Below are positions 5,272 to 22,367 of a stretch of 35,477 bases of DNA, one piece after another. The DNA is taken from assembly GCA_024638815.1 (NCBI GenBank), contig JAHEJM010000037.1, forward strand, positions 1 to 35,477. Direction: 5' to 3'. The notes under the pieces were generated by a model. The model did not search any database and was not told the origin of the DNA. It saw nothing but the letters and a program-made list of their open reading frames with translations. Position numbers and translations under genes: made by a program. Source of the stretch: Acidimicrobiales bacterium (GTDB lineage: Bacteria > Actinomycetota > Acidimicrobiia > Acidimicrobiales > SZUA-35). The stretch's first letter is position 1. Each line of letters begins with the position of its first letter.

Positions 5272-6372
5272 GTGACCTCCTCTCAGCCCATTCGCCTCAT
5301 CGTGCTGTTCGGTGGCCAGTCGGCCGAGCACGACGTCTCGTGCACCACCGCGGCCCATGTACTGGCCGCCGCCGACCCCGACCGGTACGACATCCACCCC
5401 GTGGGTATCACCAAGGAGGGTCGATTCGTCAGCGCCGCCGACGCCACCGCCCGGCTGCCCGCCGATCGAGGGCCGGAAGCGCAAATCGAGCCGCTTCGGC
5501 CCGAGGGCCCGGGCACCGAGCTGATCGCCACCGTGGCGGCCACCCCGCCCGACCAGCAGACCGTGGTCCTACCCCTGCTGCACGGGCCGCTGGGCGAGGA
5601 CGGCACGGTCCAGGGTCTGTGCGAGCTGGCCAACGTGCCCTATGTCGGGGCCGGCGTGCTCGGCTCGGCGGTGGCCATGGACAAGGCCATGGCCAAGACC
5701 GTGCTCGATGCCGCCGGTCTGCCCCAGGCCAGGTGGTTGTGGTTCACCGAATCGGAGGTGGCCGCCGACCAGGCCGGGGTTGTCAAGACCATCGCGGCCG
5801 AGCTGGGCCTTCCCTGTTTCGTGAAACCGGCCAACATGGGCTCGTCGGTCGGGGTCGGCAAGGCCAAGACGGGAGACGATGTGGCCCGAGCCCTGGCCAC
5901 GGCCTTCGTCTACGACGAGATCGTGGTGGTTGAAGAGGCGGTCACTGCCCGGGAGATCGAGCTGTCGGTGCTGGGCAACCACCAACTCGAGGTGTCGGTG
6001 CCGGGCGAGATCGTGCCGGGGGCCGAGTTCTACGACTACAACGACAAGTACCACGACGGCACGGCCGAGCTCATCATTCCGGCCCGACTGCCGGATGGGG
6101 TGACCGAGCAGCTCCAGCAACTGGCCATCGAGGCCTACCGGGCGTTGCGGGTGGAGGGTATGGCCCGGGCCGACTTCCTGTATGAGGAGGGCGGCCGAGG
6201 TCCGCTCATCAATGAGCTGAACACTATTCCCGGATTCACCCCGATCTCGATGTATCCCAAACTGTGGGAGGCGTCGGGCCTGTCCTATTCCGGTCTCATC
6301 GATCGTCTGATCGACCTGGCCATCGAGCGCCACCGGCGACGGGTGGTGAAGCGCACCACCGACCGGGCCTGA
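5272..6372 (+). CDS. ddl: D-alanine--D-alanine ligase
   Basis: Ddl joins two D-alanines with ATP to make the dipeptide used by MurF. The 366-residue protein starts with the family's LIVLFGGQSAEHDVS, followed by VLPLLHGPLGEDGTVQG and the ATP-grasp segments FVKPANMGSSVGV and VVEEAVTAREIELSVLG. The Mg/substrate region reads MARADFLYEEG, then INELNTIPGFTPISMYP, and the protein ends with the usual SYSGLIDRLIDLA helix. The open frame begins at 4996, but its first 92 codons are an Arg-rich shadow of murF. The GTG at 5272 is supported by the leaderless -10 box and by homology. The length is normal for DdlA-type enzymes. Confidence 0.96.
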   Translation: MTSSQPIRLIVLFGGQSAEHDVSCTTAAHVLAAADPDRYDIHPVGITKEGRFVSAADATARLPADRGPEAQIEPLRPEGPGTELIATVAATPPDQQTVVLPLLHGPLGEDGTVQGLCELANVPYVGAGVLGSAVAMDKAMAKTVLDAAGLPQARWLWFTESEVAADQAGVVKTIAAELGLPCFVKPANMGSSVGVGKAKTGDDVARALATAFVYDEIVVVEEAVTAREIELSVLGNHQLEVSVPGEIVPGAEFYDYNDKYHDGTAELIIPARLPDGVTEQLQQLAIEAYRALRVEGMARADFLYEEGGRGPLINELNTIPGFTPISMYPKLWEASGLSYSGLIDRLIDLAIERHRRRVVKRTTDRA

Positions 6373-6431
6373 ACCAAGACCGACCGAGCCCGAACCAAGT
6401 CGAGCTCGACGTTCAAGCTCGGGTGGGGCGG

Positions 6432-8795
6432 TTAGAAGCCGCCGCTGCTGCGGCCGCCACCAAAACTATGGCCGCCACCGCTGAACCCACCGCCGCCGAA
6501 ACTATGGCCGCCACCGCTGAACCCGCCGCCGCCGATACTGCGACCGCCGCCGCCGAAGCCCCCGGTGGTGGTATGGCCGAATCCGCCCCCGCCGACGACC
6601 ACCCAGGTGCCACCCCGGCGCCGGCGGGCGATGATGCGTTCCTGGATGGCCAATGCCTCATCGGCGATGTCGGCCGCGGCGTCGGCCCGCTCCCCCGGAT
6701 GCTCGGGCAGCCGTTGCAGCTGCTCCTCCAACCGTTCGAGGGCGTCACCCATGCCTGACTGAAATAGTTCCCATCCCAGGGCCTTCCGAGCTCTGGCTAC
6801 CGCTCGCTGAGCCCTGGACACCTCGCGCTGGGCCTCGCGCCGCAGGGCCTGCATCATTGCCTTCTCGTCCTCGGCCTTGGTCATGACCTCATCCATCTGC
6901 CGATTGAGAGCGTTGCCGGTGTCGGCCACCCGCAGGTAGTTGGGCTTCACCTGGCGCAGCTCCATCTCCAGCCCGTCCAGAGCTCCGGCGAACTCGGCCG
7001 GCTCACGGTTGAAACTGTCGTCCAGATCCTCGTCGTTGGCGGCGATGAAGGTGGCCAGCTCGCTCAGAATCTCGCGACCCTGGGCCATGATGCCGGGCGC
7101 CTCCTCCCGAGCATGTTCCAGGTCCACCATGAGGTCTTCCATCTGGTCCAGGTAGTGGTCGGCGGTGATGATATGCAGACCGGCTTGTTCCAGCTCCCGA
7201 CCGGCGTCGTCGAACCGCTGCCGGCTGAGGGTCTCGGTCATGGTCACAGCCCTGATCTTCCGGGCCTGTTCGATCTCGTCGACCGCCTGCTCGGCGAAGT
7301 CGGCGGCCCACCGCCAGGAATCGGCGGCGTGGAGCGACGCCAGCGACGTGAAGCGACGGCGTACATCCTCGGACCGGGCCAGCTCCAGCTCGGCTGCCGA
7401 CTCCAGTTCCTGATTCCATTTCTTCAACGACTCCACTCGCGACGGCAGGGCCTGGAGGTAGTGGCTGGTCGCAAACAGCTTGGCTTCGTTGCCCTCGACG
7501 TTGTCGCTGTGAGCCAGCCAGTCCTGTTCCAGTGATGCGAACTCGAGTGCCGACAGCTCGGTCTGCATCTTCTCCAGTTCGTTGACCTGACCGGCCACGG
7601 CCCAACCCTGGGACGCCCGCTGACCGGCCAGCGACTTGGCCCCCTCGATTTCCTCCAGCAACAGCTCACGCTTGCCCGGCACCGCCACCCGGAGATGATC
7701 CAAATGAGCCCCGAATGCGACAAGCCGATCGAGGGCCTCGTCGTTGAGGTCGAGCGCTCGGGACAGCTCGACCACACGCTGGCGGGCGGCCTCCAGGGCG
7801 GTTCGGTCGGCGCTTCCGACACCGCCGGGCAGCGACTGGTTGAGCAGCGCAGCCGCTCGTTCGGTCTCGGTGCGGGCCGAGGCGGTCTGACGGAGAAGAT
7901 CCGACAGCGACTCGCTGGTTCGGCCGGACGTGAGCTTCTCCCAGACATCGGCCTGGGCCGACACCCGGTCGTCCCGCTCCCGAAGTACACCGACCCGGAT
8001 CTGCGGCCCGGCCATGGAGCTCTGCAGGCGTTGGCGGGCCTCGGTGAGTTTGCGCCGGCGGTTGACGGCCACGAACACCCCGGCTCCCGCCCCCAGCACA
8101 CTCAACCCACCGACCACGGGAAGTAGTGAAATGCCGTCACCGTCGGGCTCAGGGGCAACCTGGCCGTCATCGACCGCCCCTTCGCCCTCGGTTCCGGAAA
8201 CGAGTTCTCCGTCTTCGGCGCCCGAACCCGTGGCGGCGTCGATGCGGGAGGAGATCTCCACGATGGCGTCGGTCATGGCCTCCGTGTACTCACCGTCACG
8301 AGCCCGGTCGCCGATGGTGTTCTCCCGGATGGCATCGGCGTCGCCCACATCGGCCAACCAGCGATCACCGATCCACAGGTCGGACTGCCGATCCTCGATG
8401 GAGAGGCTGATCATGACGGTCGAGTCGTCCAATCCTTCCCCACCGTCGCTGAAACACTGGGCCACGATCTCATTCACGGCATCGACCAGATCACCGCCGG
8501 GGGCACGGTCGAAGCCCCGAATGACGAAGCGGACGTCGGGAGGAGCCGAGTTCAGTATCGACTCGTTGATGGTGTCGACGTTCAACTCCCCGCTGGTGTC
8601 GACGACCGCCTGGTCGCAGTCGAACGGATCCTGGGCCAGGGCCGGAGCGGCCGACACCATGGTGAGGGTGAGGGTCAGAACAGCCATCGCCGTCAGGGCC
8701 GCCGCGGTCGACGAGAAGACCCGATGTCCGACCGATCCGGCGATCGACGACCGGACTACACGGAGGAAGGTCGCGCTGGTGTTCCCATCAGTCAT
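6432..8795 (-). CDS. TPM-domain membrane protein with coiled coils and a Gly-rich tail
   Basis: The 787-residue protein has an N-terminal signal/anchor helix at about 25-53 ending ALAQDPF. A TPM (TLP18.3/Psb32/MOLO-1) domain of about 150 residues follows, with LSIEDRQSDLWIGDRW and IGDRARDGEYTEAMTDAI. A second membrane helix lies near 230-255 (LLPVVGGLSVLGAGAGVFVAV), and roughly 450 residues of charged helical coiled coil come next. The last 55 residues are almost only Gly, Ser, His and Phe, including a near-identical 12-residue repeat (GGGGFSGGGHSF). Bacterial TPM proteins are membrane-associated and poorly understood; some relate to membrane-protein or photosystem repair. I chose ATG 8795, so the gene overlaps the end of tetR by 8 nt. 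Translational coupling is likely. Confidence 0.85.
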   Translation of the reverse strand: MTDGNTSATFLRVVRSSIAGSVGHRVFSSTAAALTAMAVLTLTLTMVSAAPALAQDPFDCDQAVVDTSGELNVDTINESILNSAPPDVRFVIRGFDRAPGGDLVDAVNEIVAQCFSDGGEGLDDSTVMISLSIEDRQSDLWIGDRWLADVGDADAIRENTIGDRARDGEYTEAMTDAIVEISSRIDAATGSGAEDGELVSGTEGEGAVDDGQVAPEPDGDGISLLPVVGGLSVLGAGAGVFVAVNRRRKLTEARQRLQSSMAGPQIRVGVLRERDDRVSAQADVWEKLTSGRTSESLSDLLRQTASARTETERAAALLNQSLPGGVGSADRTALEAARQRVVELSRALDLNDEALDRLVAFGAHLDHLRVAVPGKRELLLEEIEGAKSLAGQRASQGWAVAGQVNELEKMQTELSALEFASLEQDWLAHSDNVEGNEAKLFATSHYLQALPSRVESLKKWNQELESAAELELARSEDVRRRFTSLASLHAADSWRWAADFAEQAVDEIEQARKIRAVTMTETLSRQRFDDAGRELEQAGLHIITADHYLDQMEDLMVDLEHAREEAPGIMAQGREILSELATFIAANDEDLDDSFNREPAEFAGALDGLEMELRQVKPNYLRVADTGNALNRQMDEVMTKAEDEKAMMQALRREAQREVSRAQRAVARARKALGWELFQSGMGDALERLEEQLQRLPEHPGERADAAADIADEALAIQERIIARRRRGGTWVVVGGGGFGHTTTGGFGGGGRSIGGGGFSGGGHSFGGGGFSGGGHSFGGGRSSGGF
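6463..6534 (-). repeat. 36-bp tandem repeat encoding a Gly/Ser/His/Phe tail
   Basis: Two nearly identical 36-bp units, in frame, encode GGGGFSGGGHSF twice at the C-terminus of the TPM protein. The first copy of the shared AAACTATGG block begins at 6463 and the second at 6499. Diverged Gly-rich units continue to about 6600. Confidence 0.75.
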
Positions 8796-9426
8796 GGTGT
8801 CTCGCTTGCCGCTCGGGGTGGTACGTGGCTGGGGGCCCCGGTGTCCCCGGTACCAACACAGCTTCCAAAAACGATAACAAAGTGCGACGCAACCCGGCTG
8901 CCACCCGGACATCGAGCGTCAGGCCCATGATTCGCAAAACCTCGGGTTCGGTGACCACCCCGGACACCACGGCGTAGGCCGAAGCCAGCAGCAGCCGGGG
9001 GTCGTGGGGACCGAACGCACCGGTTCGCATTCCCCGGCGGAGTCCGTTTTCGGCCTCGGCAACGATGGGTTCCAACCGATCGACTGCGGCTCGGGACCAC
9101 GGCGGGCCCAGGCGGCTGGTCTCCCGAAGCACACCGACCAGCTCGGGGCGGCGCAAGGCCAGCGCGAAACTGGCCCGCACCGCAGCCTCGACCGAGGCCC
9201 ACCCCGGCTCGGAATCGGCCGTGGCAGCCCGCAATTCGGTCACCAGATCATCGGCGGCCCGACTCAGCACGGCCTCGATCAGCCCGTTCTTCGAACCGAA
9301 GTGGTACAGAATCGTCTGCTTGGTGACCCCGAGTTGACCGGCCAGGGCATCGAGAGAAGTGCCGGCCACGCCCTGTTCGGCGAAGGCGACGGTTGCCACG
9401 TCCAGTACCCTATGCTTGGTAGTCAC
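8788..9426 (-). CDS. TetR-family transcriptional regulator
   Basis: The 212-residue protein has the TetR N-terminal DNA-binding domain. Helix-turn-helix residues AGTSLDALAGQLGVTKQTILYHFGSK lie near residues 20-45, and the motif YHFGSKNGLIEAVL is very typical. The C-terminal two thirds are a helical ligand-binding and dimerisation region that does not reveal the ligand. The start is a GTG at 9426 with no ribosome site. TACCAT lies 7 nt upstream, so the gene is probably leaderless. The start codon itself lies inside an inverted repeat, which points to autoregulation. The gene is divergent from the FAR-HAD/LarA-like/PlsC operon, so that operon is the likely target; TPM, overlapping downstream, may be co-regulated. 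Confidence 0.88.
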   Translation of the reverse strand: MTTKHRVLDVATVAFAEQGVAGTSLDALAGQLGVTKQTILYHFGSKNGLIEAVLSRAADDLVTELRAATADSEPGWASVEAAVRASFALALRRPELVGVLRETSRLGPPWSRAAVDRLEPIVAEAENGLRRGMRTGAFGPHDPRLLLASAYAVVSGVVTEPEVLRIMGLTLDVRVAAGLRRTLLSFLEAVLVPGTPGPPATYHPERQARHHD

Positions 9427-9439
9427 TTACCAAATGGTA
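9416..9439. promoter_or_regulatory. candidate TetR operator and leaderless tetR promoter
   Basis: TTGGTA (9416-9421) and TACCAA (9428-9433) form perfect 6-bp arms around 6 nt. TACCA (9428-9432) and TGGTA (9435-9439) form a second overlapping palindrome. On the minus strand the second element contains TACCAT, 7 nt before the tetR GTG. Regulator binding here would cover the tetR transcription and translation start and lie about 80 bp upstream of the operon start at 9518. The operator function is inferred. Confidence 0.6.
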
Positions 9440-9517
9440 GACGAACCGTCGGCATCGAGGACAGGGGTTCGTCGCCGGCAGTATCACCCGGCACTTGCGC
9501 AGAGACAAAATGAAGCG

Positions 9518-12010
9518 ATGATTGCAGACCAACTGGCAGGAAAACGTATCGCCGTGACCGGGGCGACCGGCTTCCTCGGGACCGCCCTGGTGGAACGCCT
9601 GCTGAGGGGGGTGCCCGAGTGTCGGGTCGTACTGCTGATCCGTGCCGGGCGACGATCGTCGCCGAAGCAACGGGCTCGCCGGGAGATCTTCCGCAATGAC
9701 GCCTTCCGTGGCATGCTCCAGGATCGGGGCAAGGACGCCTTCTGGGACGAAATCGACCGCCGGGTCGACGTCATCGAAGGAGATGTCAGCCTCGACGGCC
9801 TGGCTTTGACGGCCGACGGTCGGCGGATCCTGGCCGATTGTGACGTCGTCATCCATTCTGCGGCCACGGTCAGCTTTGACGCCCCACTGGATGGCGCCGT
9901 CGAGGTCAACCTACTGGGCCCGACCCGAATCGTGGAGACCCTGCACGACATGGGCGTCGCACCCCACTTCGTCGCCGTGTCCACCTGCTACGTCGCCGGC
10001 AACCGTCGGGGCCATGCCCCGGAGCAGCTGCTCAGTGACAGCCCCTTCCACATCGACGTGGACTGGCGGAAGGAGGTCACCGCCGCCCGCCGAACCAGAG
10101 CCGACTTCGACGCCCAATCCCGGGCGGCCGAACACCTGGAGGAATTCCGCAAGCAGGCCCGCCACGAGCTGGGCGCAGCCGGCACTCCCCTGCTGGCGGC
10201 CAAGACCGAGCAGCTTCGCCAGCGTTGGGTCAACGACCAGCTGGTGGAGGCCGGGCGGGCCCGGGCCGCCTCACTGGGTTGGCCCGATGCCTACGCCTAC
10301 ACAAAGGCCCTGGGTGAACGGGCCCTGGACGAGACCAGGGGCGATGTGCCGGTGTCCATCGTTCGCCCATCGATCATCGAGTCGGCGTGGGCCGAACCCC
10401 ATGCCGGCTGGATCAAGGGCTTCCGGATGGCCGAGCCCATCATCATCAGTTACGCCCGGGGTCTGCTCAAGGAGTTCCCCGGGGTTCCCGAGGGTGTCAT
10501 CGACGTGATCCCCGTCGACCTGGTGGTCCACGCCATCATCGCCGTCGCCGCCAGAGGTCCCGGCTACCGGAACGTTTCCGAGGGAACCGACGAAACCCGA
10601 GTTGAAGACGACAAGCCAAACGACCGCGATGTTTCGGCGCCAAGCGCCGAAACTAGAGTTGAAGACGGGAAGCAGAAGGACCGCGATGTTTCGGCGCGTA
10701 GCGCCGAAACTCGACCAATCGCCCGACGGGCGATTGACATCACCCAGGTCGCCTCCGGCACCCGCAACCCGCTGCACTACCGACGTCTGGTCGACCTGGT
10801 GAGCGGCTGGTTCACCGAGAACCCGCTCTATGACCGCAAGGGTCAGCCCATCTCGGTGCCCGAGTGGTCGTTCCCGGGGCGGGGGGCGGTGGAACGGCAG
10901 CTCAACCGAGTCCACCGGAACCTGGAGTGGGCCGACCGCACGTTGAAGTTGCTGCCGCTTCGAGGGCGACAGGCCCTTCTCAACGCCGAGCTCGAGGGGC
11001 GCCGGGACGAGGTGTCCCGGGCCGTCGGTTATGTCAAGATCTACGGCGCCTACGCCGAATGTGAGGCCCTGTACGGGGTGGAGAACCTCCTGGCGCTCCA
11101 CGACTCACTTGATCCCGCCGATCAGGAGACCTTCGGTTGCGATCCGGCCGTCATCGACTGGGATGTCTATGTCCAGCAGGTCCATCTGCCGTCGGTGGTG
11201 GAGCACGCCAGGGTCAAGACCACGGGTGAACGTTCGGATCCCGACGCCCGAACCGCCCGGCTCCGGAAACGGGTGCTCTCCCCGGATCGCCATCTGGCCG
11301 CCTTCGATCTGGAGAACACCATCATCGCCTCCAACGTCGTCTTCAGCTATGCCTGGCTGGCCACCCGGAACCTGGGGGCCGGTGACCGCATGCGCTTCAG
11401 CTTGAAGACCTTGAGCGAAGCCCCCGGTTTGCTGGCCCTGGACCGAAGGGACCGAACCGACTTCCTGCGCCATTTCTATCGCCGCTATGAGGGCGCCTCA
11501 GTAGCCGAGTTGGACGAGCTTGGCTCCGAGTTGCTGGCCGATCACATCCTGACCAAGGCCTTCCCCGCCGCCCTGCGCCGGGTGCGGGAACACCGCCGCC
11601 TCGGTCACCGTACGGTGCTGATCACCGGAGCGCTGAACGTTGTGGTCAACCCGCTCCGACCACTGTTCGACGACGTGATCTGCGCCGAGATGACCCAGCG
11701 CGGCGGCCGCTACACCGGCGAGCTGATCACCGTGCCTCCCACCGGTGAGGTCCGAGCTCAAGCCCTTCGGGACTATGCCGACCTCCATAACGTCGATCTG
11801 GCCGAATCGGTGGCCTACGCTGATTCCTCCTCCGACCTTCCCCTGCTGGACGCCGTCGGCTTTCCGGTTGCAGTGAACCCCGAAACCCGGCTGGCGTCCA
11901 TGGCGAGCAAACGGGGGTGGTTGATCGAGTACTGGTCCAAGGCCGACGGCGGCACCGACAGGCTGCTGCCTCTGGGACCGCTGCCCACCATGCGACGGAG
12001 CCGCAAGTGA
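9518..12010 (+). CDS. fatty acyl-CoA reductase-like / HAD-IB fusion protein
   Basis: This 830-residue protein joins two enzymes. Residues 1-380 are an extended SDR of the NAD-binding-4 type: nucleotide motif GATGFLG (15-21), VSTCYVAG and the catalytic Y259xxxK263 pair. A charged linker of about 50 residues contains a 19-residue tandem repeat. Residues 440-575 resemble the FAR C-terminal domain (VIDWDVYVQQVHLPSVVEHA). Residues 590-815 are a HAD-IB phosphatase-like domain. Its motif I reads D597-L-E599-N-T instead of DxDxT, the usual motif III Lys is R746 (GEVRAQAL), and motif IV is D769SSSD. Acyl-CoA or acyl-thioester reduction is likely; phosphatase activity is doubtful. I start at ATG 9518; the frame upstream to 9359 is tetR shadow. 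It heads the operon. Confidence 0.85.
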   Translation: MIADQLAGKRIAVTGATGFLGTALVERLLRGVPECRVVLLIRAGRRSSPKQRARREIFRNDAFRGMLQDRGKDAFWDEIDRRVDVIEGDVSLDGLALTADGRRILADCDVVIHSAATVSFDAPLDGAVEVNLLGPTRIVETLHDMGVAPHFVAVSTCYVAGNRRGHAPEQLLSDSPFHIDVDWRKEVTAARRTRADFDAQSRAAEHLEEFRKQARHELGAAGTPLLAAKTEQLRQRWVNDQLVEAGRARAASLGWPDAYAYTKALGERALDETRGDVPVSIVRPSIIESAWAEPHAGWIKGFRMAEPIIISYARGLLKEFPGVPEGVIDVIPVDLVVHAIIAVAARGPGYRNVSEGTDETRVEDDKPNDRDVSAPSAETRVEDGKQKDRDVSARSAETRPIARRAIDITQVASGTRNPLHYRRLVDLVSGWFTENPLYDRKGQPISVPEWSFPGRGAVERQLNRVHRNLEWADRTLKLLPLRGRQALLNAELEGRRDEVSRAVGYVKIYGAYAECEALYGVENLLALHDSLDPADQETFGCDPAVIDWDVYVQQVHLPSVVEHARVKTTGERSDPDARTARLRKRVLSPDRHLAAFDLENTIIASNVVFSYAWLATRNLGAGDRMRFSLKTLSEAPGLLALDRRDRTDFLRHFYRRYEGASVAELDELGSELLADHILTKAFPAALRRVREHRRLGHRTVLITGALNVVVNPLRPLFDDVICAEMTQRGGRYTGELITVPPTGEVRAQALRDYADLHNVDLAESVAYADSSSDLPLLDAVGFPVAVNPETRLASMASKRGWLIEYWSKADGGTDRLLPLGPLPTMRRSRK
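10592..10736 (+). repeat. in-frame 57-bp tandem repeat with perfect triloop palindromes
   Basis: Two 57-bp units begin at 10592 and 10649, with the start of a third at 10706; each encodes 19 residues beginning ETRVED. The palindromes have 10-bp arms GTTTCGGCGC and GCGCCGAAAC around a 3-nt loop (10631-10653 and 10688-10710). A further palindrome with arms CAATCGCCC/GGGCGATTG around GAC lies at 10716-10736. All are inside the reductase linker and keep the reading frame. Confidence 0.85.
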
Positions 12011-13692
12011 ACGCCAACAGTACGCAATCAACCAGCCAGGCAACCAGCCAGTCGACCAACCGATCGGGTCGGGGACGTCGTGGCGACAAGCCGATGGCGA
12101 ACCCCCGGGCCGGGTTCGTTCTCGAGGTCGACCGTGAAACCCCACCCATCCTGTTCCACCATGGTGAGGGATTCAGGTTGGAGAAGCTGCCGGTCGGGCG
12201 CAGCCGAGTGATCTATCCCGGTGAGCCGCTTCGGGGTTTGCACGACCCCGATGGCGCCATTCGCCATGCCCTGCTCAACCCGATTGACGACGATCCGCTG
12301 CCCTCCCTGCTCCGGCCGGGCATGAAGCTCACCATCGCCTTCGACGACATCTCCCTGCCCCTGCCTCCGATGCGCAAACCCGATGTGCGCCAGCGCATCA
12401 TCGAGGCCGTGCTCGACATGGCGGCCGAGGCCGGCGTGGACGACGTGCACCTGATTGCAGCCTTGTGCCTGCACCGGAGGATGACCGACGACGAGCTGCG
12501 TCACGCCGTCGGTGATCGGGTCTTCGAGGCCTTCGCCCCCCATGGTCTGCTGTACAACCATGATGCCGAGGACCCCGACGGCATGGTCATCCTCGGCCAC
12601 ACCGACAAGGACGAGACGGTGCAGATGAACCGCCGGGCGGCCGAATCCGACCTGGTCGTCTACGTCAACATCAACCTGGTGTCGATGGACGGGGGGTGGA
12701 AGTCCACGGCCACGGGTCTGGCCGGCTATGAGGGAGTCAGGCCCCACCACAACGTGCACACGCTTCGCCACTCCCGGTCGTTCATGGATCAGAACAGTTC
12801 CGAACTGCACCGCTCGAACTGGCGGCAGGGCGAGGTCATCAAGGCTTCCGGGCCCCGGATCTTCCAAATCGAATCGACGGTCAACACCAACACCTTCGGC
12901 CACGACGGGCCGATGTCGGTGCTGCAGAAGCGGGAGTGGGAGTGGACGATGCGGGACCGGGCCACCTTCGCCGCCATGCAGGCAGGTCTGGAACGACTGC
13001 CCATGTCGACTCGTCGGCGGATCTTCCACTCATGGCGTGCCCCCTACGACATGACCTCCATCCAGGCCGGTGAGGTGGAGGCCGTACACGAACGAACCAC
13101 CGAAATGGTCTACGCCCAACACCTGGTCCCGGTGTCGGGCCAGACGGACGTGCTGACCATGGGGCTGCCCTACCTCACCCCCTACAACGTCAACTCGATC
13201 ATGAACCCGATACTGGTCATGGTCCAGGGCCTGGGCTACTTCTTCAACCTGTACCGGGGCAGGCCGCTCGTTCGGGAGGGCGGCGTGCTGATCATGAGCC
13301 ACCCCACCACGTGGGAGTTCCACCCGGTCCATCACCCGAGCTACATCGACTTCTTCGAGCAGGTTCTGGCCGACACCACCGATCCGGTCGAGATCGAGAA
13401 GCGGTACGAGAGGCACTACGCCGAGGACGAGTGGTATCGCCACCTCTACCGCACCAGCTACGCCTACCACGGCGTGCACCCGTTCTACATGTGGTATTGG
13501 GGGTCACACGCCATGCAGTACCTGGGTCAGGTCATCGTGGTCGGTGGTGATTCCAAAGCGGTGCGCAGGCTGGGGTTCAAACCGGCCTCCACCCTCACCG
13601 ATGCCCTCGAGATGGCGGAGGACACCGTCGGGCCCCAACCCACGGTGACTCACTACCACAATCCGCCGCTCCTCATGGCTGACGTCAGCTAG
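12007..13692 (+). CDS. LarA-like (DUF2088) protein, possible nickel-pincer-dependent enzyme
   Basis: The 561-residue protein matches the lactate-racemase LarA family, which uses a nickel-pincer nucleotide cofactor. Recognisable segments are FDDISLPLPP (112-121), the catalytic-His helix ALCLHRRMTDDEL with H156, YNHDAEDPDGMVILGHT, NRRAAESDLVVYVN, the cofactor-tethering-type lysine K232 in GGWKS, and H247/H248. Compared with LarA as I remember it, the DxTRP Arg is replaced (S116-L117) and the EPHYFAGFSGG histidine is absent (VSMDGG). It is also about 100 residues longer than LarA. The start GTG 12007 overlaps the upstream stop by 4 nt (GTGA), indicating coupling; ATG 12094 would drop a low-complexity Ser/Thr/Gln tail. 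The reaction is unknown. Confidence 0.75.
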   Translation: MNANSTQSTSQATSQSTNRSGRGRRGDKPMANPRAGFVLEVDRETPPILFHHGEGFRLEKLPVGRSRVIYPGEPLRGLHDPDGAIRHALLNPIDDDPLPSLLRPGMKLTIAFDDISLPLPPMRKPDVRQRIIEAVLDMAAEAGVDDVHLIAALCLHRRMTDDELRHAVGDRVFEAFAPHGLLYNHDAEDPDGMVILGHTDKDETVQMNRRAAESDLVVYVNINLVSMDGGWKSTATGLAGYEGVRPHHNVHTLRHSRSFMDQNSSELHRSNWRQGEVIKASGPRIFQIESTVNTNTFGHDGPMSVLQKREWEWTMRDRATFAAMQAGLERLPMSTRRRIFHSWRAPYDMTSIQAGEVEAVHERTTEMVYAQHLVPVSGQTDVLTMGLPYLTPYNVNSIMNPILVMVQGLGYFFNLYRGRPLVREGGVLIMSHPTTWEFHPVHHPSYIDFFEQVLADTTDPVEIEKRYERHYAEDEWYRHLYRTSYAYHGVHPFYMWYWGSHAMQYLGQVIVVGGDSKAVRRLGFKPASTLTDALEMAEDTVGPQPTVTHYHNPPLLMADVS

Positions 13693-13742
13693 CGATGACC
13701 GGATAGAGCGACAGGTTGCGAGGAACAGGGTACGAACGACAA

Positions 13743-14636
13743 ATGGGCTGGTTGCGATTCATCACCCAACCTCCTCCCACCCCCCGCGGGGTGGAGAGGC
13801 CGGAAACCGAACCGAAGACCGGGGTTCACTACGACACCGGATGGGCGCATCGACCGGTGGCCAAGTGGGTTCGCAAGGCCGGAGTCTGGGGGTTCTTCAA
13901 ACCGGCCATCGCCATCTATTCCAGTCCCCGGGTCATCGGCCTCGACCGGCTCGACAAGGTGGCAACGCCCGTCATCTTCGCCGCCAATCATCACAGTCAT
14001 GCCGACACCAGCCTGCTGCTGGCCACGCTGCCGAGCCGGCTGCGGGACGATCTGGCCATCGCCGCCGGTGCCGACTACTTCTTTCCCAACCGGGTGGCCG
14101 GCGCCATCTCGGCCTTGTTCATCGGGGCCATCCCGATCGAGCGTCAGAAGTTGTCGAAGCTCTCCATCCGCAACAGCCTCGGCGCCCTCGAGCGGGGCCA
14201 GAACCTGCTGATCTTTCCCGAAGGCGGACGGAGTCCCGACGGCTGGAGCCAGGAGCACCGACCCGGCGCAGCCTACCTGGCCAAGAGGAGCCAGGCCCCG
14301 GTGATCCCCGTCTACCTCGACGGCACGGCCAACGTGCTGCCAAAGGGCAGGAGCTGGCCGTCACGAGGGCGCTGCGCCGTGGTGTTCGGTGATCCCATGC
14401 AGATCGAGGCCGATGAGAATCCCCGGGTCTTCGCCAAGCGAGTGGAGCAGCGGGTGAACGAACTGGCCGACGAGTTCGCCTCAGGCTGGTGGGAAGCCCG
14501 CAAGAAGGCCTACCGCGACGCCACTCCCGGCACCACGGGCCCCGAGGCAGGGGCCTGGCGGCGCCGGTGGGCTCTGGGCCCCAAGCCGGGACAACACCGT
14601 TCGAAGCCGGGCCCTCGCCGCTGGCCCGAGCTTTGA
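13743..14636 (+). CDS. PlsC-type 1-acyl-glycerol-3-phosphate-like acyltransferase
   Basis: The 297-residue protein has the acyltransferase motifs in order: HX4D in NHHSHADTSLL, then GAIPIERQKLSK, FPEGGRSPDG and VIPVYLDG. These enzymes transfer an acyl chain from acyl-CoA or acyl-ACP onto a glycerophosphate or similar acceptor at the membrane. It is the third gene of the operon, 50 nt after the LarA-like stop, so its substrate is probably tied to the same lipid pathway and need not be phosphatidic acid. The C-terminal 40 residues are basic and Pro/Gly-rich. I prefer ATG 13743 (MGWLRFITQ) over a TTG at 13716; neither has a strong ribosome site. Confidence 0.85.
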   Translation: MGWLRFITQPPPTPRGVERPETEPKTGVHYDTGWAHRPVAKWVRKAGVWGFFKPAIAIYSSPRVIGLDRLDKVATPVIFAANHHSHADTSLLLATLPSRLRDDLAIAAGADYFFPNRVAGAISALFIGAIPIERQKLSKLSIRNSLGALERGQNLLIFPEGGRSPDGWSQEHRPGAAYLAKRSQAPVIPVYLDGTANVLPKGRSWPSRGRCAVVFGDPMQIEADENPRVFAKRVEQRVNELADEFASGWWEARKKAYRDATPGTTGPEAGAWRRRWALGPKPGQHRSKPGPRRWPEL

Positions 14637-14720
14637 GCTCTCGGGCGATCCACGCCGGATTCCGAACCTGATCGACCGGGCTCGGCCCTGGTCCAAGGGT
14701 TGTCGACAGATCTAGTGTTC

Positions 14721-14779
14721 GGCGCGGAGCGCCTCATGGCAACTCTTTGAGTTGCTTCGAGTTTGGCCTCCGGCCAAAC
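14721..14779. repeat. cluster of three palindromes with 3-nt loops
   Basis: GGCGC/GCGCC around gga (14721-14733), GCAACTC/GAGTTGC around ttt (14739-14755) and GTTTGGCC/GGCCAAAC around tcc (14761-14779) follow one another between the convergent plsC and lipoprotein genes. Neither side has a U-run. They may act as a bidirectional terminator. The triloop architecture matches palindromes at 10631-10736 and 32442-32484. Confidence 0.65.
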
Positions 14780-14827
14780 GTCGCCGAGACCTGACTTGAT
14801 CGTGAACATCCAAGCCGCCAAGCAAAA

Positions 14828-15406
14828 CTAGGGGGTCTCGACCTCGGTGTCGAGTTCACGGCAATCGAGTACCTGATCACGGTTTCCGCAGGTCAGCCCG
14901 AACCGCTCATAGTCGCTTCCCACCGGTGACTGTTCGAACAGGCGGTCACAGGCCGCACCGTCGCCGGCCTCACACCCGTCCCACAGCCGGTCGAGGGTGG
15001 AGTCGTCGCCGTAGTCCATGGGCTGATCGTCGGGGGTGTCGTCGCCGAAGGCCAGCCCACCTCCCGATGGTTGGCCACCGACCGAGCCGTTGAGTTCGGC
15101 GTCGGATCGATCCAGCACCTCCTGAGCTCGCTCGCAACTGGCTACGAGTTCCTCCTCCATCACGGAGTCCAGCGGGCCTCGCCGCAGCTCATCGGTGGCG
15201 AGCTGCAGGACACAATCGGTCACCTCGTCGGCCACATCGGCCCCGCCCAGACGCTGACGAAGCTCGACCTCCGGGGCCGGATCGGCCGTTTCGTCGCCAC
15301 CGGCACAGGCGGCCAGCGCCAGGCAACATGCGGCGAATCCGGCGGTGGCCCGGCAACGGATCCTCAATCGACTGCACTGGTGTGGCACCCTGTTCTCATC
15401 GGACAC
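14828..15406 (-). CDS. small secreted lipoprotein with a C-terminal cysteine domain
   Basis: The 192-residue protein begins with a basic stretch and hydrophobic segment (ATAGFAACCLALAACAGGD) ending in a lipobox-like LAAC, so it is probably exported and lipidated. The mature part is acidic. The last 50 residues contain the actinobacterial motif CEAGDGAACDRLFEQSPVGSDYERFG...TCGNR, which recurs in secreted proteins of unknown function and probably forms two disulfides. The open frame runs to 15823, but sequence before GTG 15406 is Pro/Ser/Arg shadow over the nitroreductase. The start has no clear ribosome site. It is divergent from the nitroreductase with an 83-bp gap. No enzymatic motif is visible. 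Confidence 0.7.
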   Translation of the reverse strand: MSDENRVPHQCSRLRIRCRATAGFAACCLALAACAGGDETADPAPEVELRQRLGGADVADEVTDCVLQLATDELRRGPLDSVMEEELVASCERAQEVLDRSDAELNGSVGGQPSGGGLAFGDDTPDDQPMDYGDDSTLDRLWDGCEAGDGAACDRLFEQSPVGSDYERFGLTCGNRDQVLDCRELDTEVETP

Positions 15407-15489
15407 GGCATTCGAGCCGTGAGCGGCCGGTCGGACGTCACGGCCGGGGCACCGACCGGACGACGACCCGGACCCAGCAAGGAGCAGCC

Positions 15490-16149
15490 ATGAAGTTGAA
15501 CCTGTCGGCCGACGAGGTGCTGACCACCACCCGCTCGGTGCGAAAGCGGCTGGACTTCGACCGTCCGGTCGAGGCGACGACGGTGCTGGAGTGCATCGAC
15601 ATGGCCCTCCAGGCCCCGACCGGGTCGAATCGCCAGGGCTGGCAGTGGATGGTGGTGGCCGATCCCGACAAGAAGCGGGCCATCGCCGAGGTGTACCGAA
15701 CCCACTTCGCCGCCTATGCCAAGCTGCCGCCACCGGACTACGACTCCGCCGACACCCGGGCCCGGCGCCGGGACCACGTGCGGTCATCGGCCAACTACCT
15801 GGCGGAGAACTTCGAGCGGGCACCGTTCATGGTCATACCACTGATCGCCGGCCGTCTCGGTCCGGGAGCCGGGACCTTCCAGCAGGCGTCGGCCTGGGGC
15901 TCCATCCTGCCTGCGGTGTGGAGCTTCATGCTGGCCCTACGGGAGCGAGGCCTCGGTTCGGCCTGGACCACCCTGCACCTGCCTGATGAGCGGATCGTGG
16001 CCGACCTTCTCGACATTCCGTTCGACGACTACACCCAGGCCGGGCTGTTCCCCGTCGCCTACACCAAGGGCACCGATTTCAAACCGGCACCCCGCCTACC
16101 GGCGGTCGAGCTCACCCACTGGGACACCTGGGAGAATCGGACCATCTGA
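15490..16149 (+). CDS. nitroreductase-family FMN oxidoreductase
   Basis: The 219-residue protein belongs to the nitroreductase superfamily, which uses FMN and NAD(P)H to reduce nitroaromatics, quinones or halogenated rings. Motifs are TTRSVRKRLDFDRPV (FMN phosphate loop), ALQAPTGSNRQGWQWMVV (flavin ring contact), ASAWGSILPAVWSFMLALRERGLGSAWTTLH and the C-terminal FPVAYTKG. The start ATG 15490 has a near-perfect AAGGAG (15479-15484) 5 nt upstream, one of the best ribosome sites in the window. The frame upstream of it is shadow. It ends 2 nt before the stop of the convergent DUF3048 gene. The physiological substrate cannot be inferred. Confidence 0.9.
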   Translation: MKLNLSADEVLTTTRSVRKRLDFDRPVEATTVLECIDMALQAPTGSNRQGWQWMVVADPDKKRAIAEVYRTHFAAYAKLPPPDYDSADTRARRRDHVRSSANYLAENFERAPFMVIPLIAGRLGPGAGTFQQASAWGSILPAVWSFMLALRERGLGSAWTTLHLPDERIVADLLDIPFDDYTQAGLFPVAYTKGTDFKPAPRLPAVELTHWDTWENRTI

Positions 16150-20972: not shown

Positions 20973-22367
20973 TCACTCGGAGGCGGGCGCCTTGCCCGGC
21001 GGGTAGGTCAGGGCGACTTCGGCGTCGGTCGGCTCCCGCCGGACCTTGGCCTCATCGGGAAGCAGGTCGACGATTCGCTCCATGATCTCGGCCGTCGCCT
21101 CCTCCGGATCCTTGGATGCGGGGTGATAAGGTTCGCCCACCGTCACGCTGATGGTGGGCGGATTGGCCAGGTTGAGCACATAGGGCACCCGGCTGGAGCG
21201 GGGCCAGGCCTTCTCGGAGCCCCAGATCCCCACCGGAACCACCGGAGCTCCGGTCCGACGCGCCAACCGGGCCGCACCATAGCGCCCCTTGAGTACGGGA
21301 TCGAAGAACTCGGGGCCACGGGGAATGGTGCCCTGGGGGAAGAGGGCCACCAGCTCGCCCGCGTCCAGCAGGCGAGCGGCTTCGTTCATGGGCTGGTCGC
21401 TGCCGCTTCCCCGGTCGACGCGCACGGCGCCCAGGGCTTTCACGATGGAGCCGACGACGGGGGCGTCGGTGACCTCCTTCTTGGAAAGGAACCGTGTGGG
21501 CCGGTTGCGGCGACTGGCGGCATGGGCCACCACCAGCGGATCGAGGTAGCTGCGGTGATTGGGGGTCATGATAACCGCCCCCTCGGCCGGGAGGTTCTCG
21601 ATCTGCCGGATCTGGAAGTCGAGCCAGGGCCAGAGCTGGGGCCGGGCGATCTTGTTGACCACCTCCTGGAGTTCGATGCCGACCGGTTTGGGCACCCCCT
21701 CCGGGGCATTGAACCAGACCCGGGACCAGCCTCGGAGCACGGCGTAGGCGAAAAGCCGGGGGTCGGGATTGACCGCCACCGGATTTCCGACCTTGGACAG
21801 CATGGGAATGTCGAAGAAGCTGTCGGAGTAGGCATAGCTCTCGGCCAGATCGACCAGGTTGGCCCGAGCCCACGATTCGATCAGCCGGGCCTTGCCCGTC
21901 GACCAGACGAACTCACCGTCGATGGTGCCGTCGTAGCAGTTGTCGGGGCCGACCCGATAGCGGGTGGCCAGCACATCGTCGAAGCCCATGAGATCGGCGA
22001 ACGGCTTGACCACATCAAAAGGCGTCGTTGTGGCCAGAACGATCTTGCGACCTTCGGCCTTGTGGTCCTCGAGCGTGGCTCTGGCGAACGGTTCGACCTG
22101 GGCGGCCAGGGCGGGGGCAAGATCGATGCCTGCCGCCCTGGTGGCCTTGACCGACCACCCCTTGGCCGCTCGCGCCCCTTGGCGGGTCAACAGCATCGAG
22201 GGCAGGGTCTCACCGAACAGATTGAACACGGCGAACGCCAGGCCCTCGCCGGGCAGCGACTCCTGACGCAACAAGCCGTGATGTCGCAGGGCCTTGGAGA
22301 TGGTGGGACCGCTGGCCCCCAGCAGCAAGGTGCGGTCGAGATCGAAGAACGCAGCAGAGTTGGCCAT
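20973..22367 (-). CDS. HAD-IB phosphatase-like / PlsC acyltransferase fusion
   Basis: Residues 4-225 are a HAD-IB domain with canonical motifs: D9-L-D11-R-T13, a TTP segment after KIVLATT, a GKARLIES lysine and SDSFFD. Residues 245-445 are a PlsC-type acyltransferase with NHRSYLD (HX4D), then FPQGTIPRGPEFF and VVPVGIWGSEKAWP. The normally conserved Glu of the FPEGT motif is Gln (Q345). This SerB-like/PlsC layout is known from mycobacterial PlsC (Rv2483c). It probably acylates a lysophospholipid-like acceptor, with the HAD domain possibly removing a phosphate. The start ATG 22367 has TAGACT 9 nt upstream. A 6C-type RNA is encoded upstream on the same strand. It is convergent with acn. Confidence 0.88.
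   Translation of the reverse strand: MANSAAFFDLDRTLLLGASGPTISKALRHHGLLRQESLPGEGLAFAVFNLFGETLPSMLLTRQGARAAKGWSVKATRAAGIDLAPALAAQVEPFARATLEDHKAEGRKIVLATTTPFDVVKPFADLMGFDDVLATRYRVGPDNCYDGTIDGEFVWSTGKARLIESWARANLVDLAESYAYSDSFFDIPMLSKVGNPVAVNPDPRLFAYAVLRGWSRVWFNAPEGVPKPVGIELQEVVNKIARPQLWPWLDFQIRQIENLPAEGAVIMTPNHRSYLDPLVVAHAASRRNRPTRFLSKKEVTDAPVVGSIVKALGAVRVDRGSGSDQPMNEAARLLDAGELVALFPQGTIPRGPEFFDPVLKGRYGAARLARRTGAPVVPVGIWGSEKAWPRSSRVPYVLNLANPPTISVTVGEPYHPASKDPEEATAEIMERIVDLLPDEAKVRREPTDAEVALTYPPGKAPASE

Follow-up and report, generated by a model that had tools for sequence, protein, structure and literature searches.

A nickel-pincer enzyme homologue in a conserved actinobacterial operon with a predicted role in ether-lipid synthesis

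Why should a homologue of the nickel-pincer racemase LarA be encoded between a fatty acyl-CoA reductase and a PlsC-type acyltransferase? The question arises from positions 1-35,477 of contig JAHEJM010000037.1 of Acidimicrobiales bacterium GCA_024638815.1 (SZUA-35), the whole of which is referred to here as the window, with coordinates on the forward strand. An earlier description based on the letters of the window (the sequence-only reading) had proposed a possibly undescribed lipid module of a TetR regulator, a fatty acyl-CoA reductase fused to a HAD domain (FAR-HAD), a LarA homologue (LarAH) and PlsC, and profile matches place all four genes where it had put them. Synteny supports a conserved lipid module containing the LarA homologue, and with moderate confidence we predict that it is an aerobic operon for sn-1 O-alkyl (ether) glycerophospholipids. 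The evidence presented here is the operon, its conservation, its linkage to cofactor genes and its residues. The operon joins two questions, namely how aerobes make ether lipids without AGPS (alkyl-dihydroxyacetone phosphate (DHAP) synthase) or Ger/PlsA, and what the substrate of the LarAH14/15/16 family is.

Gene order was compared in 35 loci from the window's own order and in a second set of 34 loci, mostly from outside its class; the loci were picked for holding LarAH, so that order counts measure linkage and not prevalence. FAR-HAD lies upstream of LarAH on the same strand in all 35 own-order loci and in 27 of the 34 in the second set, which bears out gene-order conservation, a check that the sequence-only reading had proposed, and PlsC lies downstream of LarAH in 33/35 and 23/34, respectively. 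Among 61 relatives, 50 score over the cut-off of the LarAH14/15/16 profile NF052592, and a sample of 396 genomes from across the phylum yielded 80 with a match. The named relatives are nearly all Acidimicrobiia, Candidatus Microthrix included. LarAH and FAR-HAD also tend to occur together (both in 55 genomes, neither in 5, FAR only in 1, LarAH only in 0; p ~1e-6, uncorrected for shared ancestry). Synteny and co-loss rule out an oddity of this window or a chance meeting of neighbours.

The operon is fuller than the window suggests. A gene of ~400 aa stands between FAR-HAD and LarAH in 15 own-order and 27 second-set loci, and its product is a zinc MDR alcohol dehydrogenase, which is most similar to dehydrogenases of polyols and threonine and passes none of the NCBIfam cut-offs. 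In the window's family MDR is not in the operon, and an orthologue of ~60% identity is encoded elsewhere (C203:74-1237 in the window's own genome). The fuller operon is TetR, divergent from FAR-HAD, MDR, LarAH and PlsC, sometimes with PlsY or LarE-LarB-LarC; the sequence-only reading had overlooked the MDR gene, the linkage to LarE-LarB-LarC and an in-frame insertion in FAR-HAD that is specific to the lineage. The relocated MDR gene of the window's family (L216, which is the C203 locus, L218 and L219) adjoins mftB/mftC in the relatives examined. This neighbourhood hints that MDR may use or supply a mycofactocin redox cofactor; assignment as a mycofactocin NDMA-dependent dehydrogenase was rejected (TIGR03989, 38.6 bits vs a cut-off of 440).

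LarAH passes NF052592 at 879.6 bits against a cut-off of 740, over model positions 1-519 of 520, and carries the complete residue set of enzymes that use the nickel-pincer cofactor (NPN), consisting of the cofactor lysine K232 (thioamide link), the nickel histidine H248, the ribose aspartate D114 and one catalytic histidine, H156; none of the four varies among the 58 FAR-linked copies. The second catalytic histidine (LarA H174) is missing from these 58 copies, in which the loop is 4 residues shorter and no histidine aligns, except in one with a histidine at column 224, and the position of the substrate-carboxylate arginine (LarA R75) is leucine in 53/58 and never arginine. A canonical LarA racemase was rejected on the missing second histidine, and the suggested racemisation of a hydroxylated intermediate fails with it, since this subfamily has only one of the two histidines on which the racemase mechanism relies. 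LarAH groups 14 and 15 have been reported to be without that residue (PMC12611868). The AlphaFold2 model of LarAH, which bears on fold only, has a pLDDT of 94.9 and matches 9q3k best (Z 40.5, root-mean-square deviation 2.2 over 453 aa). By sequence and modelled structure LarAH is nearest to the single-histidine NPN enzymes LarA_Sp and LarA_Bw (PDB 9q2u/9q3k and 9q3j; Z 40.5 and 36.6; PMC12611868), with ~24% identity in the structural alignment and the fold, the cofactor site and one catalytic histidine in common; they differ in lying among carbohydrate genes and in having asparagine at the second histidine, where the LarAH loop is shorter. Frankia LarAH14 belongs to the same NCBIfam family as the window protein, and the parts of its description that were available hold no link to lipids and report no activity with NPN in any of seven assays, whose substrates were small hydroxy acids and sugar acids (PMC7583248). 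A plasmid search returned ordinary LarA only.

Linkage to cofactor genes points in the same direction as the residues. LarE, LarB and LarC directly follow PlsC in four loci from families outside the window's order (L165, L168, L169 and L170). In L168-L170 they continue on the operon's strand, overlapping or closely spaced, and in L165 LarE is on the opposite strand; each of the three is over its NCBIfam cut-off in L168. Because LarE, LarB and LarC follow the operon in these four loci, LarAH very probably uses the nickel-pincer cofactor. LarC was found in 50 of the 61 relatives, and a LarE-like gene precedes LarC in a genome of the same genus (G001).

FAR-HAD comprises a fatty acyl-CoA reductase domain (aa 13-340), a FAR_C-like domain (aa 401-565) and a HAD-IB phosphatase domain (aa 593-791). 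Its conserved Rossmann GxxGxxG and YxxxK motifs and the FAR_C-like domain, whose Pfam score is under the family cut-off, are those of alcohol-forming reductases, and the fatty acyl-CoA reductase in PDB 7eoz matches at 4e-57 with an alignment across both reductase domains. Y259/K263 and the HAD residues D597, D769 and D773 are invariant in the homologues. HAD motif I (aa 597-601; 11306-11320) reads DxE, not DxD, in 44/55 homologues, which is an unusual substitution for the general acid/base residue.

Which lipid the operon would make is indicated by its occurrence in Rubrobacter, through which an ether lipid is favoured among the ether, alcohol and hydroxy-acid products that had been offered as options. 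On the Rubrobacter indicoceani chromosome (G133), PlsY, FAR-HAD, MDR and LarAH stand in a row; PlsY heads the operon in Rubrobacteraceae, and in a second Rubrobacteraceae locus it is over its NCBIfam cut-off. Rubrobacterales are reported to have mainly mixed ether/ester lipids. A 2023 paper on Rubrobacterales lipids is reported to mention in its abstract a putative 1-O-alkyl glycerol phosphate operon resembling one in other aerobes, and this may be the same operon. FAR-based ether-lipid operons are already known: the elb genes of Myxococcus xanthus bring together a HAD protein with FAR and PlsC-like acyltransferase domains, and ElbD is required for most alkyl and vinyl ether lipid in that organism (PMC9131029). 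The novelty claimed for the module is thus tenable only with care, FAR-based operons being known and the Rubrobacter operon possibly on record. FAR, a PlsC-like acyltransferase and HAD are common to elb and the window operon, but ElbD is a FAR-ACS-ACP-acyltransferase multidomain protein whereas the window fusion has FAR, FAR_C and HAD only, which sets it apart from the elb type.

Compared with the peroxisomal pathway (FAR1, GNPAT, AGPS, a reductase and AGPAT), the FAR, ketone reductase and acyltransferase could map one to one onto FAR, MDR and PlsC, but AGPS is absent from the window operon and LarAH fills the unexplained place. The parts, with PlsY for acylation at sn-1, map onto an ether-lipid pathway in which LarAH is the sole part without an assigned step. 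No gene for the FAD enzyme AGPS was found among the operon genes. The anaerobic Ger/PlsA route yields the same product class (sn-1 ethers), but its DUF2229 protein was found in 0/15 genomes tested, five of them Rubrobacteraceae including R. indicoceani. R. indicoceani has three PF02913 proteins: for two of them D-lactate dehydrogenase and glycolate oxidase are the best matches, and the other is a fusion of 978 aa; neither AGPS nor Ger/PlsA is evident in that genome, with the fusion not compared with PDB. The window's own genome has two PF02913 proteins, one best matching D-2-hydroxyglutarate dehydrogenase types and the other resembling the glycolate-oxidase type.

In the pathway that we propose, FAR would reduce an acyl-CoA to a fatty alcohol, and PlsY or the cell's normal route would supply 1-acyl-glycerol-3-phosphate or its DHAP analogue. 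LarAH, with NPN and one catalytic histidine, might then act on the glycerol backbone or a related intermediate, abstracting a hydride at one of its C-OH groups and isomerising it, so that C1 may be activated for a swap of the acyl group by the fatty alcohol. MDR would interconvert ketone and secondary alcohol, PlsC would acylate sn-2, as its family suggests, and HAD would remove phosphate. A hidden-redox step of LarAH on the glycerol backbone is speculative; activation at C2 by NPN would fit this protein because a single-histidine enzyme need not invert the centre. That LarAH is itself a new ether-bond-forming enzyme is unlikely. In that case NPN would take the C2 hydride of acyl-glycerol-3-phosphate, the FAR-derived alcohol would displace the acyl group from the transient ketone and the hydride would be returned, which would make LarAH a redox-neutral replacement of AGPS and the first lipid-making NPN enzyme. 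More generally, the proposed ether-lipid pathway predicts ether lipids in Acidimicrobiales, Candidatus Microthrix included, and would involve the nickel-pincer cofactor in membrane synthesis for the first time; among the top-listed papers of an open-access library, none was found to join that cofactor to lipid synthesis. It also names a small gene set open to expression or deletion and offers a first testable role for the orphan LarAH14/15/16 family.

Several observations weigh against this proposal. The Rubrobacter loci are without an adjacent PlsC, and the Rubrobacterales lipid analysis covers five species, among which R. indicoceani is not known to be. In one genome (G047, locus L060) a true homologue of AGPS lies upstream of FAR-HAD at a distance of ~3 kb, outside the operon and separated from it by murF-like and ddl-like genes, and because this homologue exists LarAH need not be the ether-forming enzyme; another genome (G011) encodes a protein that looks similar to AGPS. 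The search for lar genes that the sequence-only reading had called for succeeded in relatives, through the four linked loci and the wide occurrence of LarC, but the window's own genome, which is 91% complete, yielded neither LarC nor a true LarE (LarB was not searched for), possibly owing to an assembly gap, and a few other fairly complete genomes have LarAH but no LarC. The own-genome candidate for LarE was rejected, its best match reading as MnmA. Finally, in G015 (locus L237) PlsC still follows FAR-HAD although LarAH and a close MDR are absent. This arrangement points to a single sub-step in which MDR and LarAH both take part. Its congener G025 (L238) has no detected LarC and a divergent LarAH in which all three of H156, K232 and H248 are lost (H156Q, K232H, H248N). 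This genus, in which LarAH is lost or degraded and no MDR lies close by but FAR-HAD and PlsC are retained, is a natural control on what the nickel step adds.

Among the other explanations, a role of LarAH as epimerase of a 2-hydroxy acid is quite unlikely; glycerate or a 2-hydroxy fatty acid would then be processed by FAR and PlsC and serve as a backbone or acyl chain of an unusual kind. The LarA-superfamily activities reported in two papers are all on 2-hydroxy acids (PMC7583248, PMC11770544), but LarAH is without both the second catalytic histidine and the arginine at R75, and Frankia LarAH14 showed no activity in its seven assays. Synthesis of neutral storage lipids such as wax esters, with fatty alcohol from FAR, its esterification by PlsC and adjustment of acyl supply by the remaining genes, is less probable still; it would suit the pairing of FAR and PlsC in G015, but it does not account for the invariance of the NPN enzyme, the presence of LarE-LarB-LarC or the position of PlsY at the head of the operon, and no wax synthase was seen in the operon. 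A neighbourhood conserved for general phospholipid remodelling or phosphate recovery with no distinct lipid product, in favour of which a HAD-PlsC fusion is also encoded nearby (20973-22367), is very doubtful given the operon's own regulator and operator, tight packing, in-line cofactor genes and co-loss.

Regulation of the operon is predicted to be local. A TetR gene lies within 7 kb in 26/35 own-order loci, and the palindromic operator claimed between TetR and FAR-HAD is confirmed by a TACCnnnnGGTA site in 32/32 of the divergent TetR/FAR-HAD gaps examined, the window's included, from the window's genus through other families of the phylum. The motif TACCAnnTGGTA, which is found in nearly all of those 32 gaps, has 34 matches in the 69 loci (1.16 Mb), where shuffling would lead one to expect 0.3 per 35 loci. 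The window's own genome has three operator-type sites, as many as in the reversed control, and because only one of them precedes the TetR/FAR-HAD pair (Table 1), the other two being in unrelated places, the predicted operator appears to act locally. None was found at the 12 relocated MDR loci and 10 LarC loci examined, and a wider TetR regulon was ruled out on these grounds. TetR would repress the operon through TACCAnnTGGTA, a conserved site.

Table 1 Features of the operon region in the window
Feature	Position	Strand	Evidence or remark
TetR-family regulator	8788..9426	-	PF00440 E=1.5e-12; divergent from FAR-HAD
Predicted operator TACCAAATGGTA	9428..9439		Between TetR and FAR-HAD, directly before TetR start
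FAR-HAD fusion, 830 aa	9518..12010	+	PF07993 8.6e-57, PF12710 3.1e-28, TIGR01490 over cut-off
In-frame insertion in FAR-HAD, ~52 aa	10562..10729	+	Tandem palindromic repeats
LarA homologue, LarAH14/15/16 subfamily	12094..13692	+	NF052592 879.6 bits; longer possible start GTG 12007
PlsC-type 1-acylglycerol-phosphate acyltransferase	13743..14636	+	PF01553 6.8e-18

The packing of the genes was largely as described, with the 50-nt gap between LarAH and PlsC correct. The 4-nt overlap of FAR-HAD and LarAH (GTGA 12007-12010) holds if LarAH starts at the GTG, but ATG 12094 is the likelier start because homology to most relatives sets in at about residue 28-33 when translation is taken from the GTG. 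The gap is then 83 nt, and the overlap may reflect no more than which start is chosen.

The insertion in FAR-HAD was found in this genome only among those compared, the region being 64 aa long in the window vs 7-25 aa in 54 homologues. It consists of tandem units of ~57 nt with perfect stem-loops (TTTCGGCGCnnnGCGCCGAAA), two in number. A shorter form, GGCGATGTTTCGGC..GCCGAAACTCG, also occurs in two copies in L199, close to ATP synthase genes, and in L200, close to NADH dehydrogenase genes, and because of this recurrence the insertion seems to be a dispersed palindromic element taken up inside the coding sequence. Rfam gave no match within window positions 6000-16000. The second HAD-acyltransferase protein of the window, on the minus strand ~6 kb from the operon, has 464 aa with HAD first and then PlsC, and similar HAD and PlsC matches lie close to the operon in some relatives.

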